Source: Pseudomonadota bacterium (lineage in GTDB: Bacteria; Pseudomonadota; Gammaproteobacteria; Burkholderiales; Thiobacillaceae). Taken from it: a stretch of DNA of 64,000 nucleotides. Below the pieces are notes generated by a model. That model did not search any database, was not told the origin of the DNA, and saw only the letters and a program-made list of their open reading frames with translations. The position numbers were made by a program, and so were the translations under genes. Location: contig JAJZPG010000009.1 in NCBI GenBank assembly GCA_021811235.1, positions 1 to 64,000 of the forward strand. Reading direction: 5' to 3'. Of this stretch, positions 135 through 7,882 are shown in pieces (the first letter of the stretch is position 1; each line of letters opens with the position of its first letter).

Positions 135-608
135 ATGAGCAGATCATTGCCTTGGGGCATATCGATAATTCTGGCGATTCTCTTGGGACTTTTATGGTAC
201 GAGGCGAAACAAAACCTCGCGCAAAAAGACGCCGAGTTGGCGGAGCTCCAGGGGCGCTATGCGCAGCTTGCCGTTGACGCGAATAGCAAGATCGCCCAGC
301 TAACTCAGCAAGCGAACGAGAAAATAAGGCTTGCCAATCAGCCGGAAATCCCTATTCGTGTGTCTTTTCGTAAAGCCTGGCTGGCCAGTGGGAATGTGGC
401 CGGCTTTCACAATTTGTCGGCTCAAACTGTTGCAGTCGTAGCCAACGTTGAACGGCCCTTATCCGGTCAAGGCCGCGCATTTACCTTAGCGATAGACCCG
501 GGCGTGACGAAGGAAATCGGGGAGGTCGAGGGATGGGCTTTTGTGCCTGGAGACTCGATCACTCTCACTCAGCCAGAGCACAAATCTCTACTCGTGCGAG
601 CGCCGTAA
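135..608 (+). CDS. Hypothetical membrane-anchored protein with coiled coil
   Basis: Not recognised. From the ATG at 135 the product is 157 residues. It has a transmembrane or uncleaved signal helix at about residues 5-23 (ISIILAILLGLLW), then a heptad-rich segment of about 45 residues (AELAELQGRYAQL, AQLTQQANEK) likely to be a coiled coil, and a small C-terminal domain that would lie outside the membrane. The ATG at 135 is preferred because AGAGG stands at 121-125 and the predicted helix begins at once. A TTG at 81 and an ATG at 90 are in frame but add a short polar leader. The next gene follows after 29 bp on the same strand, so the two are probably co-transcribed. It lies in the element bounded by the tRNA-Lys fragment and looks accessory. 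Confidence 0.6.
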   Translation: MSRSLPWGISIILAILLGLLWYEAKQNLAQKDAELAELQGRYAQLAVDANSKIAQLTQQANEKIRLANQPEIPIRVSFRKAWLASGNVAGFHNLSAQTVAVVANVERPLSGQGRAFTLAIDPGVTKEIGEVEGWAFVPGDSITLTQPEHKSLLVRAP

Positions 609-637
609 CGATCAGTAAACACTGGAGGTCAATCGGC

Positions 638-2239
638 GTGAAACATAACGCCCCACTAGGGAAGCCGGGGGCTGCCGCAGACATCGGTGAGGCGACCGAG
701 CTTCGCGGCGCACTTCCACCTTCAGAAACCGACAATGCATCGACGGAGCCAGCTGAGCTAAGGCCCGAAGAGTGCGCGCTGTCACGAGCGCTGAAAGAAT
801 GGGGACCTTGGAAGCGCTGGCACTGGTATCGGCAGACGCAAAGCCATGATCGCAGTGGTTTTTGGGGGAGCCGAGATTCTGAGGAGAATAAACGCGGCCG
901 CCTTCCAGATGAAGAAGGAGTTCAGGTGCCAGCGGTATGGGTGGCAGAACTGTACACGCCTTCTACAGTAGGGAAGCTTCTCCGGGGCATCCGGGATTTG
1001 GGTTGGGAGCACGGAAGGAGCGGACGAGACAGCTTGTCCAAATGGATGAATGATGTACGGGAAGGGCGCCAGGCTGGTTGGATAAACCTCGGGCCAGTGT
1101 CACCACCGAGCACTGCTCACATGCTTATTGAGCGAACGGCGCCATTGCCCCCCGGCGTGAAGGTGGCTTTGCCAATTTTGATATCGCTCACCCCGAGTCT
1201 CACCGCCTTTGTTATCGCTTTCCTGTTTGACGAAAACAGGGCCACCTCGCTAGAGGTGCCTCTGCGTGAAGAATTCAGCACGAGTGTACGAAGAGATCGA
1301 TCGTTCCGATTGTGGCACGTCGCGCAGTACGTGTTTACGAACCGGACCAGTCATTTTGGTCGCAGCGTATATAACCCTGACATACTCCGCCGTGAGGCTG
1401 TGAAGTCCCGCCTACAAGAACTGGAGAGCGACTGCGTAAAATGGGTTCGGGACCACCTTGCTGGTGTCTTCACTTCCCAACCCGGTTTGCGTTCACCTAC
1501 AGCAGCTCTGCTGGTAACCGAGAGGGCCAGGCCCTTATCAGAGGAGGCTGCCAAGATTACAGCGTTTGACGGGCTTGCTATCGGTCGCAATTACGACGCG
1601 TGGGAGTCCGATGAATGGCCCGGGGCAGGCCTTGCTATGCCGCACGGCTGGGACGACGAGGGTAAACGACTCGTCTTTGCCTGCCGCAGGCGCGATGCCT
1701 TCCCGGATAGCCCCGGCTACCATGAGCCCACCTCAAATCGGACGATTGCCCAAAGAGCAGATGAACTTATTCGAGGTCTGCTGTTGCGATGGGCGCTTAC
1801 GTGTCTGCTGGACCGTTATCATGAAACATTATCAGTATTGCGCGACCGTACCGCGAACGATGGCAGGTACCGACCTATTCGGGACTTGAAGGAACTTCGC
1901 TCCCTTGCCCGGACTACCCTCTACGATATCGGACTATGTACCCAAGAGATCGTGGAGTTCGCTGAGTCGGACTTCAGGTATCGCTACGACGTTTTGGAGA
2001 TGTCGTACGCCAGCGAGGTGCGAGGTGAAAAACCTAAACTCTTGGACGAGCTTCGCACCTCACAAAAAATGCGCGCACGACAGATTCAGCGAGATGCCGC
2101 TCTTCTTCAATCGACACTATCGATTAGCAATGATCTGTCCCAGACAATTTCTAACATGCGTATACAGCGCCTCGTGGTCCTACTCACGGTTGTGTCCGTC
2201 GGGGTTGCGCTGTGGGCTGCGTTCAAAACGGTGACGTGA
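638..2239 (+). CDS. Hypothetical protein with one internal and one C-terminal membrane segment
   Basis: Not recognised. The open frame extends upstream, but the start is placed at GTG 638 because GGAGG at 624-628 sits 9 nt before it and this start clears the upstream gene; the product is 533 residues. Residues 1-60 are polar and probably disordered. A hydrophobic stretch near residues 170-192 (VALPILISLTPSLTAFVIAF) is a possible membrane helix. The last 80 residues are helical and charged and end in a hydrophobic segment (LVVLLTVVSVGVALWAAF). A long helix running into a C-terminal membrane anchor resembles CorA-like folds and several membrane proteins linked to conflict systems, but no catalytic motif is visible and I assign no function. 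It is the last gene before the tRNA-Lys fragment. Confidence 0.6.
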   Translation: MKHNAPLGKPGAAADIGEATELRGALPPSETDNASTEPAELRPEECALSRALKEWGPWKRWHWYRQTQSHDRSGFWGSRDSEENKRGRLPDEEGVQVPAVWVAELYTPSTVGKLLRGIRDLGWEHGRSGRDSLSKWMNDVREGRQAGWINLGPVSPPSTAHMLIERTAPLPPGVKVALPILISLTPSLTAFVIAFLFDENRATSLEVPLREEFSTSVRRDRSFRLWHVAQYVFTNRTSHFGRSVYNPDILRREAVKSRLQELESDCVKWVRDHLAGVFTSQPGLRSPTAALLVTERARPLSEEAAKITAFDGLAIGRNYDAWESDEWPGAGLAMPHGWDDEGKRLVFACRRRDAFPDSPGYHEPTSNRTIAQRADELIRGLLLRWALTCLLDRYHETLSVLRDRTANDGRYRPIRDLKELRSLARTTLYDIGLCTQEIVEFAESDFRYRYDVLEMSYASEVRGEKPKLLDELRTSQKMRARQIQRDAALLQSTLSISNDLSQTISNMRIQRLVVLLTVVSVGVALWAAFKTVT

Positions 2240-4718: not shown

Positions 4719-5160
4719 TCAAGCTGTTCGACGTTTTGCCGCGAACACTTGTCGTATTACATCTGATGCAAAACCACGTCCCTGAAGAAATCGCATTTGC
4801 TTCATTTTTTCCGCAGCGTTGGTAGGCGGCGTGCCGAATTTCTTCTGCCACACGGCGTGGGCGCGTTCGAGCTCGCCGTCTTCCTCGCTACCCAGCACTT
4901 CGTCGATCACCGCATCCGGCACGCCGTGCTGGCGCAATTCGTAGGCGAGTTTGACGCGGCCCGACTTCGCGCGGTGGTCGGCGACCCAGCTTTCGGCGAA
5001 GCGGCGGTCGGAGAGCCAGTTCTTGGCCTCGAGCTCATCAAGCAGCGGCTGAACGCCGCTCGCATCGAAGCCGGCCGCCTGAAGCTTGCGGGCGAGCTCG
5101 GCGCGGGTGTGCTCGCGGCGCGCCAGCAGGGCGATCGCGCGGGTGCGCGCGTTGCCCGGT

Positions 5161-5183
<23 letters not shown>
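4719..5183 (-). CDS. recX: Regulatory protein RecX
   Basis: A 154-residue all-helical protein that caps RecA filaments and damps recombinase activity. The RecX pattern is visible: a first helical repeat with [14 protein letters not shown], then [17 protein letters not shown], and a last repeat with [19 protein letters not shown]. Its start codon lies inside the end of recA (23-bp overlap, different frame), so translation should be coupled to recA and keep RecX below RecA. It is the last gene of the recA transcript. Confidence 0.93.
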
Positions 5184-6210
<1,027 letters not shown>

Positions 6211-6272
6211 GGTTTCTCTCCTGATGGTCGGTTTGTGTGGATGGCAGGTGTCGCTGCGCCTGCATGGATTGC

Positions 6273-6318
6273 AATGTAGGCGATATATTTTCATATGTCA
6301 ATAAAAAATATCACCTAC
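6273..6318 (-). promoter_or_regulatory. recA promoter overlapped by a long inverted repeat (candidate operator)
   Basis: On the minus strand TTGACA (6296-6301) and TACATT (6273-6278) are separated by 17 bases, a good sigma-70 promoter placed 63 bases before the recA ATG. An inverted repeat spans the same bases: left arm 6276-6291 and right arm 6303-6318 pair at 14 of 16 positions (core GTAGGCGATAT against ATATCACCTAC) around an 11-base centre. The left arm covers most of the -10 element and the right arm flanks the -35 element, so a dimeric protein bound here would block or modulate recA. No LexA-type CTGT-N8-ACAG box is present between 6211 and 6402. Confidence 0.75.
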
Positions 6319-6324
6319 GTAAAA

Positions 6325-6368
6325 AATACAGCTTGATCGATTGTATTTGATGCCTGCCGCCCTATAAT
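6325..6368 (+). promoter_or_regulatory. Promoter of the WYL regulator gene with second inverted repeat
   Basis: TTGTAT (6341-6346), a 16-base spacer and TATAAT (6363-6368) form a plausible promoter firing towards 6403. AATACA (6325-6330) and TGTATT (6342-6347), 11 bases apart, form an inverted repeat over the -35 element. The same 11-base arm spacing is seen in the recA inverted repeat, though the arm sequences differ. Confidence 0.55.
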
Positions 6369-6402
6369 TCCGGGCAAACCGGCTCGAAGCGGAGCGAGCT
6401 CT

Positions 6403-7293
6403 ATGAATACAAAGGAAAAAATGCACCTGGACGTGAAGTGGGCGACGCGCCAGCGGCTGCAGTACATCGAAATCATGGCGTTTTATGCCGGAGTGGTGAC
6501 GCGCAGCGACGTCGCCCGCGCCTTCGGCCTGTCCGACCCGGCGGCGACCAAGGACCTCAAGCTCTACGGCGATCTGGCTCCCGGCAACCTCGTCTACAAC
6601 CACAGCGTGTTCGGCTTCGTGCCGGGCGCGGGATTCGCCGCCGTATTCGCCGACCTTGCGCCCGTTGCCGTGCTGCCGGTCATCGCGGCCAACCTGGCGG
6701 TGGCGAACGGGCCCTACGGCGGCACTCTGGTCTATGGCCTGCCGACCGCATCGCTGCCGCTGCCGGCCCGGCTGCCGGGTGCGCAGACGCTGGCGCAGAT
6801 CACCCGTGCCATCCATGGCCGCCGCAAGCTGCAGGTGAGCTACCGTTCGCTGTCCGGCCGCGACAGCTCGGGCACCCGCCTCCTCGAACCCCACACCCTG
6901 GTCAACACCGGCCTGCGCTGGCACGTGCGCGCCTACAGCGAGGACAGCTGTGATTTCCGCGACTTCGTGCTGTCGCGCATCGTGGCGGCCGAATGCCTGG
7001 AGGCGCCGGCCGAATCCGGCGAGCCATACGACGACGACTGGGTGGAGTGGGTAAGCCTGAAGCTGGCGCCACACCGCGGGCTCGACGCGATGAGGCGCGA
7101 GAGCCTGCTGCTGGATTACGGCGCCAGCGGCGCGGTCATCGAGGTGAAGGTGAGGCGCGCGCTATTGGGCTACGTGCTGCAGCGCCTCGGTGTCGATACC
7201 ACGGCGGACCACAGCCTGAACCCGAACGCCTATCAGTTGATGCTGTTGAATCGCGACGAGATCGAACCGTTCGCGGCGTGGGCTTTCAGTTAA
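6403..7293 (+). CDS. WYL-domain transcriptional regulator of the BrxR/CapW type, divergent from recA
   Basis: A 296-residue regulator. The N-terminus is a winged helix: RLQYIEIMAFYAGVVTRSDV, then ARAFGLSDPAATKDLKLY and GDLAPGNLVYNHSVFGFV. The order FIE...R-D...FG(I/L)S.P.A..DL..Y..LAP.N..Y is that of BrxR/CapW proteins. A WYL domain follows (about 130-215; LQVSYRSLSG, EPHTLVNTGLRWHVRAYSE, FRDFVLSRI), then a C-terminal WCX-like extension with LLDYGASGAVIEVKVRRALL. Family members bind inverted repeats as dimers and control BREX or CBASS defence operons, and other WYL proteins (PafBC, DriD) respond to DNA damage or single-stranded DNA. Here no defence genes are adjacent; the divergent partner is recA. 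GGAG at 6391-6394 supports ATG 6403; ATG 6421 is an alternative. Regulation of recA is inferred from the layout. Confidence 0.85.
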   Translation: MNTKEKMHLDVKWATRQRLQYIEIMAFYAGVVTRSDVARAFGLSDPAATKDLKLYGDLAPGNLVYNHSVFGFVPGAGFAAVFADLAPVAVLPVIAANLAVANGPYGGTLVYGLPTASLPLPARLPGAQTLAQITRAIHGRRKLQVSYRSLSGRDSSGTRLLEPHTLVNTGLRWHVRAYSEDSCDFRDFVLSRIVAAECLEAPAESGEPYDDDWVEWVSLKLAPHRGLDAMRRESLLLDYGASGAVIEVKVRRALLGYVLQRLGVDTTADHSLNPNAYQLMLLNRDEIEPFAAWAFS

Positions 7294-7386
7294 AGATTCA
7301 GGTTACAAGTTACAAGTCGCAAGTTTATTAAAGAGCGCGGCGCGAGCCGCACATTCCTTGCAACTTGAATCTTGCAGCGTGTAACT
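7294..7386. repeat. Inverted pair of 7-bp-periodic arrays between convergent genes
   Basis: Left array 7296-7325 reads in heptads (TTACAAG, TTACAAG, TCGCAAG); right array 7356-7385 reads CTTGCAA, CTTGAAT, CTTGCAG. The two are roughly complementary around a GC-rich core, so the RNA could fold into a long imperfect hairpin from either strand. It lies between the ends of the WYL gene and the cinA-like gene and may serve as a two-way terminator. The same 7-bp architecture with other units recurs at 9295, 17229 and 32309. Confidence 0.6.
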
Positions 7387-7882
7387 AACTCACCAGTTCG
7401 ATCAAGCCGCGCAGCGCTGCCGCCACCGCACGCGAGCGGATTTCCTCGCGGTCGCCGTCGAGGCGGCAGGTGGACGACATGACGGTGCCGTTGGCCAACG
7501 CCCAGCCGTAGCACACCAGGCCGACCGGCTTTTGCGGGGTGCCGCCGCCGGGACCGGCGATGCCGGAAATGGCGAGCGCGGCCTGGGCGTGGCTGTGTTT
7601 GAGGGCGCCGGCCGCCATGGCGCTGGCGATTTCCTCGGACACGGCGCCGTGCGTGTCCAGCATCTCGGGGCGCACGCCGAGCATCTCGATCTTGGCGGCG
7701 TTGGCGTAGGTGATGAAGCCGCGCTCGTACCAGTGTGAACTCCCCGGCAGAGAGGTGAGCAATTGTCCGACCCAGCCGCCGGTGCAGGATTCGGCAGTGG
7801 CGAGCATCCAGCCGCGCGCGCGCAGCTTGTCGCCGAGTTCCACCGCGAGCCGGTGCAGTTCTTCGTCGCTCACACGAGCCAT
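7385..7882 (-). CDS. pncC: Nicotinamide-nucleotide amidase (CinA C-terminal domain, PncC)
   Basis: Hydrolyses nicotinamide mononucleotide to nicotinate mononucleotide in pyridine nucleotide salvage; the bacterial NAD-dependent ligase releases the substrate. The 165-residue protein consists only of the CinA C-terminal domain, without the N-terminal MoaB-like half. Signatures are LATAESCTGGWVGQ near residue 30, GFITYANAAK, HGAVSEE, and ALAISGIAGPGGGTPQKPVG. The start is ATG 7882 (MARVSDEELHRL), 13 bases inside the end of pgpA, so it is the last gene of the thiL-pgpA unit. cinA-type genes are often next to recA; here the WYL regulator lies between. Confidence 0.92.
   Translation of the reverse strand: MARVSDEELHRLAVELGDKLRARGWMLATAESCTGGWVGQLLTSLPGSSHWYERGFITYANAAKIEMLGVRPEMLDTHGAVSEEIASAMAAGALKHSHAQAALAISGIAGPGGGTPQKPVGLVCYGWALANGTVMSSTCRLDGDREEIRSRAVAAALRGLIELVS

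Follow-up and report, generated by a model that had tools for sequence, protein, structure and literature searches.

Gene Order around recA

The window (the whole 64,000-nucleotide stretch analysed) belongs to a genome of 2.85 Mb that is 99.7% complete. At its recA locus, a gene for a WYL-type regulator lies back to back with recA across a spacer of 192 bp, as a sequence-only reading of the same DNA had described. The genes concerned are as follows:

4719–5183, minus strand: recX, downstream of recA (Pfam RecX domains)
5161–6210, minus strand: recA (Pfam RecA, 489 bits; the sole RecA match in the genome)
6403–7293, plus strand: regulator gene, encoding a BrxR/CapW-type wHTH-WYL-WCX protein of 296 aa (Pfam WYL, 55.1 bits; PDB matches, orthologue alignments A1 and A2, Foldseek)
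7385–7882, minus strand: cinA-type gene (Pfam CinA, 191 bits), so that the regulator gene sits between cinA and recA

The order of genes is recX (−), recA (−), regulator (+), cinA (−), pgpA, an AIR-synthase-domain gene (thiL), and nusB. Of 27 loci of the order that lack the regulator, 15 have a detected cinA close to recA, and in E. coli pncC is followed by recA; the regulator gene thus appears to have come in between cinA and recA.

The absence of adjacent defence genes, also noted from the sequence, is borne out: none of the ten neighbouring ORFs matches PADLOC at 1e-5, so among them there is no CBASS, BREX or other defence operon of the kind that adjoins a CapW or BrxR gene in the narrow sense. 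The regulator itself is matched by a pair of “WYL” models in PADLOC that carry a CRISPR-associated label (best E 1.8e-18), a match at the level of the domain. Elsewhere in the window, positions 533–2239 (plus strand) hold a 568-aa open frame with no Pfam or PADLOC match at 1e-5.

The Regulator Belongs with BrxR and CapW

The divergent gene had been read as coding for a winged-helix/WYL protein of the kind that controls BREX and CBASS operons, and the searches agree. Besides the Pfam WYL domain, the best solved relatives in the PDB are CapW (7tb5, E 1.3e-38; 7tb6; 9c5g, E 1.3e-29) and BrxR (7qfz, 7t8k), all within the range E 1e-38 to 1e-29. PafBC is a far weaker match (E 1.8e-7) with similarity in the WYL region only, DriD gives no PDB sequence match at E 0.1, and NCBIfam returned no family for the regulator. 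Profile A1 aligns with five CapW and BrxR chains over nearly their full length (E 3e-46 to 5e-37), and the protein has the wHTH, WYL and WCX domains, the full-length similarity and the size (about 290–300 aa) of that family.

The AlphaFold model, built from 31 sequences, has a pLDDT of 81.7, with residues 98–119 below 50. In a Foldseek search with this model, BrxR and CapW occupy ranks 1–15 and PafBC and DriD ranks 16–30, so that in fold as in sequence BrxR and CapW are by far the closer relatives. The match to BrxR (E 8e-24) has a TM of about 0.5 and an rmsd of about 15, because the domain orientation differs between the model and BrxR.

Nine pocket residues are named for Stenotrophomonas maltophilia CapW in PMC9122588, and eight of them are kept in the regulator, including a histidine in place of a tyrosine: Y145, S147, R169, W170, H171, R183, F185 and R189 of CapW correspond to Y147, S149, R172, W173, H174, R186, F188 and R192. 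Seven of these are invariant among the 31 sequences and F188 is kept in at least 90%; the single difference from CapW is W156, which is replaced by R159. That paper lists R32, S42, Q45 and S47 as CapW residues tested for DNA binding. R32 and S42 are kept here as R34 and S44, while Q45 and S47 have changed to A47 and T49, both fixed across the 31 regulator sequences. Being fixed and yet unlike those of CapW, the latter pair fits a regulator that would read a different operator.

Conservation of the Divergent Pair

A family sample of 117 genomes in 12 genera and an order-wide search of 399 genomes were used. Orthologues of the regulator, by our own reading of the identities (69–93%, own genome aside, with matches at 39% or less treated as paralogues), are present in 68 of the 117 family genomes, in genera g1, g4, g10 and g12. 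Both genes lie on one contig in 60 family genomes, where they are always divergent (60/60) with a gap of 146–407 bp, and all 63 family spacers that could be extracted, some with shorter recA pieces, have the same orientation. An apparent loss of the regulator in some genomes of the window’s genus, taken to be Thiobacillus, was set aside as uninformative, for G075, G076, G077, G098 and G102 have no recA match or a recA cut at a contig end.

Nine more genomes, from a second family (f49), come from the order-wide search, and in all six that were inspected recA is divergent next door (L256, L257, L233, L235, L236, L237). Over the named loci, 78 of 79 regulators are divergent to recA; the stretch of the remaining one (L179) ends before recA is reached. 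Seventeen named loci carry regulators 51–68% identical to that of the window, sixteen of them titled gammaproteobacteria and one (L180) Proteobacteria only. Since some Thiobacillus-like loci, such as L114 and L177, also bear a gammaproteobacterial title, a RecA tree was preferred to record titles. In this tree of 89 rows, whose bootstrap is not fully settled, 17/17 fall outside the branch of the window’s order (98/89), among other orders and E. coli. To sample other orders without regard to the regulator, the 29 top-scoring recA loci were taken from 52 genomes in which recA was matched; three of them (L260, L262, L270) have the regulator, with 59–65% identity and the pair divergent and 180–191 bp apart. 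Judging by these 17 loci and the 3/29 of the sample, the regulator–recA pair is a recurring arrangement in the class Gammaproteobacteria, not a Thiobacillus peculiarity.

A tree of 65 regulators has a branch (support 96/97; present in 96% of bootstrap trees) that separates the 47 recA-linked proteins from 18 paralogues of related genomes, which are not linked to recA; some branches are long and the inner joins unsure. Certain of the BrxR-type paralogues lie directly upstream of HsdM-type methylase genes (L238, 3010–3939, minus strand; L241, 3207–4136, plus strand). These were found in G046 and G064, the methylases being recognised by Pfam HsdM_N and N6_Mtase, and both genomes, the single-contig G046 among them, have a recA-linked regulator besides the methylase-linked paralogue. 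Such a position is what one would expect of a defence regulator.

At two loci (L158, L160), RecA falls among other orders and the regulators inside the betaproteobacterial group (97/97). In one g10 genome (L135), RecA groups with those members of the order that have no regulator. Both placements in the trees suggest that the regulator can move without recA and settle beside a native recA.

The Control Region and Its Elements

The spacer between the two genes contains the following features:

6273–6278, minus strand: recA −10, TACATT, 17 bp from the −35 (TAnAnT in 69/80 spacers)
6296–6301, minus strand: recA −35, TTGACA (TGTCAATA exact in 73/80 spacers)
6341–6368, plus strand: putative regulator promoter, TTGTAT, 16 bp, TATAAT (6363–6368)
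6276–6318, no strand: inverted repeat, arms 6276–6291 and 6303–6318, 14/16 paired (assessed by dinucleotide shuffles and arm uniqueness)
6277–6292, minus strand: R1, inverted copy spanning the recA −10 and the promoter spacer (second-best non-self place of the R2 matrix, pooled run)
6302–6317, plus strand: R2 (TAAAAAATATCACCTA), just upstream of the recA −35 (source of the matrix; conserved core)
6320–6335, plus strand: R3, direct copy 18 bp from R2 (best non-self place, pooled run)
6330–6345, minus strand: R4, inverted, overlapping the regulator’s −35 (third-best non-self place, pooled run)

The recA promoter reads as the sequence-only reading gave it, and TATAAT occurs no more than 110 nt ahead of the regulator in 63/63 family spacers and 7/17 others. 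The claim that the recA promoter lies inside an inverted repeat with 16-bp arms also stands: the arms, GTAGGCGATATATTTT (6276–6291) and AAAAAATATCACCTAC (6303–6318), are separated by an 11-base spacer, and no dinucleotide shuffle of the intergenic region out of 300 attains 14/16, the best giving 12. Shorter cuts of the repeat are unexceptional, being matched by 14/300 shuffles at 10-bp arms and by 26/300 at 12 bp. A second inverted repeat had been proposed over the regulator’s −35, and AAATACA (6324–6330) and TGTATTT (6342–6348) are indeed there with an 11-base gap, but the likeness in spacing is superficial, since the A-tracts lie outside in this repeat and inside in the first.

In relatives, the long inverted repeats are less good, many reaching 8–10 of 13. 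Three loci (L174–L176) have a 13-bp repeat with a 3-bp gap that spans R2/R3 and is perfect in two of the three. Because the best repeats in relatives differ in their centre, the idea of one long inverted repeat serving as operator gave way to an array of shorter elements.

In all, 80 spacers (63 from the family and 17 others) were aligned by anchoring on the recA −35. Cores of the form TA-N5-TA are centred at 6281 (R1) and 6306 (R2) in 80/80 spacers and at 6324 (R3) in 73/80, and all three cores are found in 3/3 of the loci from the other-orders sample. Where the pair is conserved, then, the control region is kept as well; it is the short elements that are well kept, and the repeat with 16-bp arms less so. 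In the pooled run, none of 150 column-shuffled matrices does as well as the R2 matrix at ranks 1–3. With a matrix trained on the 63 family spacers and tested on the 17 others, the top four places are R2, R3, R4 and R1. The reverse cross-test, trained on 17 and tested on 63, is weaker: AT-rich overlapping places take ranks two to four, R4 comes fifth and R3 sixth, and R1 is missing from the twelve places listed, which makes R1 and R4 less certain as candidate binding elements. Operators of the BrxR/CapW family are palindromes of about 20–27 bp that cover the promoter; here TA-N5-TA units lie over the −10 and beside the −35 of recA in all 80 spacers, but the array as a whole consists of direct and inverted copies. 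BrxR sites have half-sites 5 bp apart according to PMC9122601 and PMC9122589, so that the TA-N5-TA cores may be dimer sites.

The array seems confined to this locus at the stringency applied. The sequence TGTCAATANNNNNTATCA occurs in one copy each in 51 of the 117 family genomes; across the same 117 there are none in the eight genera without an orthologue and no reversed-control matches. All 51 copies are found upstream of the regulator at a distance of 330 bp or less, and 17 of the 68 regulator genomes have no exact match. Within two mismatches, AAAAATATCACCTAC finds in the window’s genome only the two arms of the inverted repeat, that is, no further sites that would point to a wider regulon; sites at three mismatches are no commoner than in the reversed control (16 sites in all versus 21).

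The regulator might control its own gene alone, with recA adjacent by history (through the insertion between cinA and recA) and constitutive. The same two papers place the binding of BrxR upstream of its own gene, and R3 and R4 are near the regulator’s promoter. This reading is nonetheless quite improbable, for the cores at the recA −10 and −35 lie at least 35 bp upstream of the regulator’s −35 and are found in every one of the 80 spacers.

LexA and Its Boxes

Control by the WYL protein had been coupled with the lack of a LexA box at recA, and no CTGT-N8-ACAG is present at 0 or 1 mismatch in the window’s intergenic region, nor in any of the 63 family spacers. The 78 named-locus spacers have no exact box and three with one mismatch, and exact GAACN4GTTC, a LexA box type known in Gram-positives, is missing from the 12 regulator-positive loci scanned. 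By the presence of a box, therefore, recA is not placed in the LexA regulon here. The scan does find the LexA box of E. coli recA, which served as a positive control. In regulator-less recA upstream regions, however, exact CTGT-N8-ACAG is found in 0/20 of the same family, 2/27 of the order and 2/26 of other orders, and exact GAACN4GTTC in 5/20, 3/27 and 0/26, respectively. Since relatives with and without the WYL gene alike often lack a box at recA, “no LexA box” was weakened as an argument and counts as weak evidence for WYL control. The five same-family cases (L084, L086, L087, L088, L089; genera g2, g5 and g6) have GAACN4GTTC 14–17 bp upstream of recA, and the lexA matches in these genera are below cut-off.

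Absence of lexA, raised as a point to check, does not hold: the window’s genome has the gene (C38:23912–24499, 239 bits). Its promoter carries CTGTATACATTTACAG, 18 bp ahead of the point where the profile match begins, and the longest reading frame would overlap this sequence. Exact CTGT-N8-ACAG occurs at ten sites in the genome, none at recA, against 13 in the reversed control, so that many of them may be due to chance; apart from the lexA site, a Y-family polymerase gene has one 180 bp upstream. The cut-off for lexA is passed by 50 of the 56 genomes of the window’s genus; among 17 further genomes that have the pair, 14 pass it (11 with a nearly full-length match) and three have no match at 1e-10. 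Genera g10 and g12 (G046–G051, G108–G116; one a single-contig genome) keep the pair, and lexA over cut-off is found in none of their 15 genomes. At L178, the spacer contains the palindrome CTGTATCCAACAATACAG (CTGT-N10-ACAG, a LexA box plus two bases), in a genome with no lexA match at 1e-10.

These counts bear on whether recA is still controlled by LexA through a divergent box, with the WYL protein as an accessory. Such an arrangement would suit the wide occurrence of lexA in the genus and in other genomes with the pair, and we consider it very improbable: the box is missing from all 63 family spacers at 0–1 mismatch and in exact form from the 78 named spacers (three at one mismatch), exact GAACN4GTTC from the 12 loci, the scan recovers the E. 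coli box, the genome’s own lexA promoter carries CTGTATACATTTACAG, and the g10 and g12 genomes keep the pair with lexA over cut-off in 0/15.

A Model for Control of recA

The conserved pair and its control region, both read from sequence, support the proposal that a WYL protein and not LexA controls recA here. The regulator is probably a dedicated, autoregulated recA repressor of the BrxR/CapW family that is relieved by single-stranded DNA. It would act, most likely as a homodimer, on the array of 16-bp elements lying over the recA −10, next to the −35 and over its own −35; as the array spans both promoters, recA and the regulator gene would both be repressed. Upon DNA damage, single-stranded DNA would enter the conserved WYL pocket as the ligand, the DNA-binding domains would leave the operator and transcription of recA would rise. 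LexA appears to have retained a small regulon that does not include recA. Cleavage of LexA needs RecA, and for this reason LexA would act downstream.

Repression relieved by single-stranded DNA is favoured by the position over the −10, by family membership and by conservation of the pocket. CapW is reported in PMC9122588 to be a repressor that binds palindromes overlying the −10. CapW and BrxR are said to repress until single-stranded DNA is bound (the Blankenchip and Corbett 2024 result, as relayed in PMC13373217), and PDB 9c5g is, going by its entry title, CapW with single-stranded DNA bound.

Several points count against the model: the array differs from the single palindrome of BrxR, one pocket residue is changed (W156 to R159), R1 and R4 are less certain, the long repeats are poorer in many relatives, and the position of R2 and R3 upstream of the −35 would suit an activator as well. 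Like PafBC, which acts at recA P1, and DriD, which acts at recA, both WYL activators according to PMC11804915, the ligand-bound regulator might recruit RNA polymerase from R2/R3, the best-scoring elements of the pooled run. The protein, however, is nearest to BrxR and CapW, both of them repressors (E 1e-38 to 1e-29 versus 2e-7 for PafBC; Foldseek ranks 1–15 versus 16–30), R1 covers the recA −10, and a promoter with a consensus −35 and 17-bp spacing should do without an activator. An activator is on balance rather unlikely.

Comparison with Known Systems

WYL control of recA is of a kind already known: PafBC and DriD, named as DNA-damage regulators in the sequence-only reading, are indeed such cases according to PMC11804915. 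Among the top-ranked open-licence literature matches, no divergent WYL–recA unit is described and no BrxR/CapW-type recA regulator is named; what looks new is a BrxR/CapW branch that would control recA from a dedicated divergent gene.

Induction of recA is the textbook output of LexA. On a wider account, which we hold to have about an even chance of being right, a phage-defence-type repressor sensing single-stranded DNA was recruited to recA and LexA displaced at the recA promoter in Thiobacillaceae, a second family of the order and several gammaproteobacterial lineages, with the level of RecA set by direct sensing of single-stranded DNA, upstream of LexA cleavage and separately from it, and the regulator moved between lineages to native recA genes. 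If true, a single-target repressor that may itself read single-stranded DNA would represent another design for the decision to induce recA, and the BrxR/CapW family, so far mainly known from phage defence, would be tied to a core repair gene. The question of how regulators pass from defence islands into the core genome and back is touched by this, and a single protein and its promoter suffice for a direct test.

With CapW and BrxR, the regulator shares the wHTH-WYL-WCX domain order, the length, the WYL pocket, the predicted domain folds and repeats over the promoter by the gene. It differs from them in being linked to recA at a constant place (orthologue in 68/117 family genomes) and not to a defence operon; from CapW by A47 and T49 in place of Q45 and S47; and from BrxR by an array of 16-bp elements in place of a single palindrome of 25–27 bp. 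PafBC of actinobacteria, too, is a WYL protein that targets recA upon DNA damage, with single-stranded DNA as ligand (predicted here), but it is a heterodimeric (or fused) activator of about 150 genes, as given in PMC11804915, and is similar in the WYL region only (E 2e-7). DriD of Caulobacter, a WYL regulator that binds single-stranded DNA and is said in the same paper to act on recA, is an activator and a remote fold match. In common with LexA and the SOS response, there would be a repressor over the recA promoter and a DNA-damage logic; unlike LexA, the protein is unrelated, has no LexA box at its target and would sense single-stranded DNA directly, not through RecA filaments.
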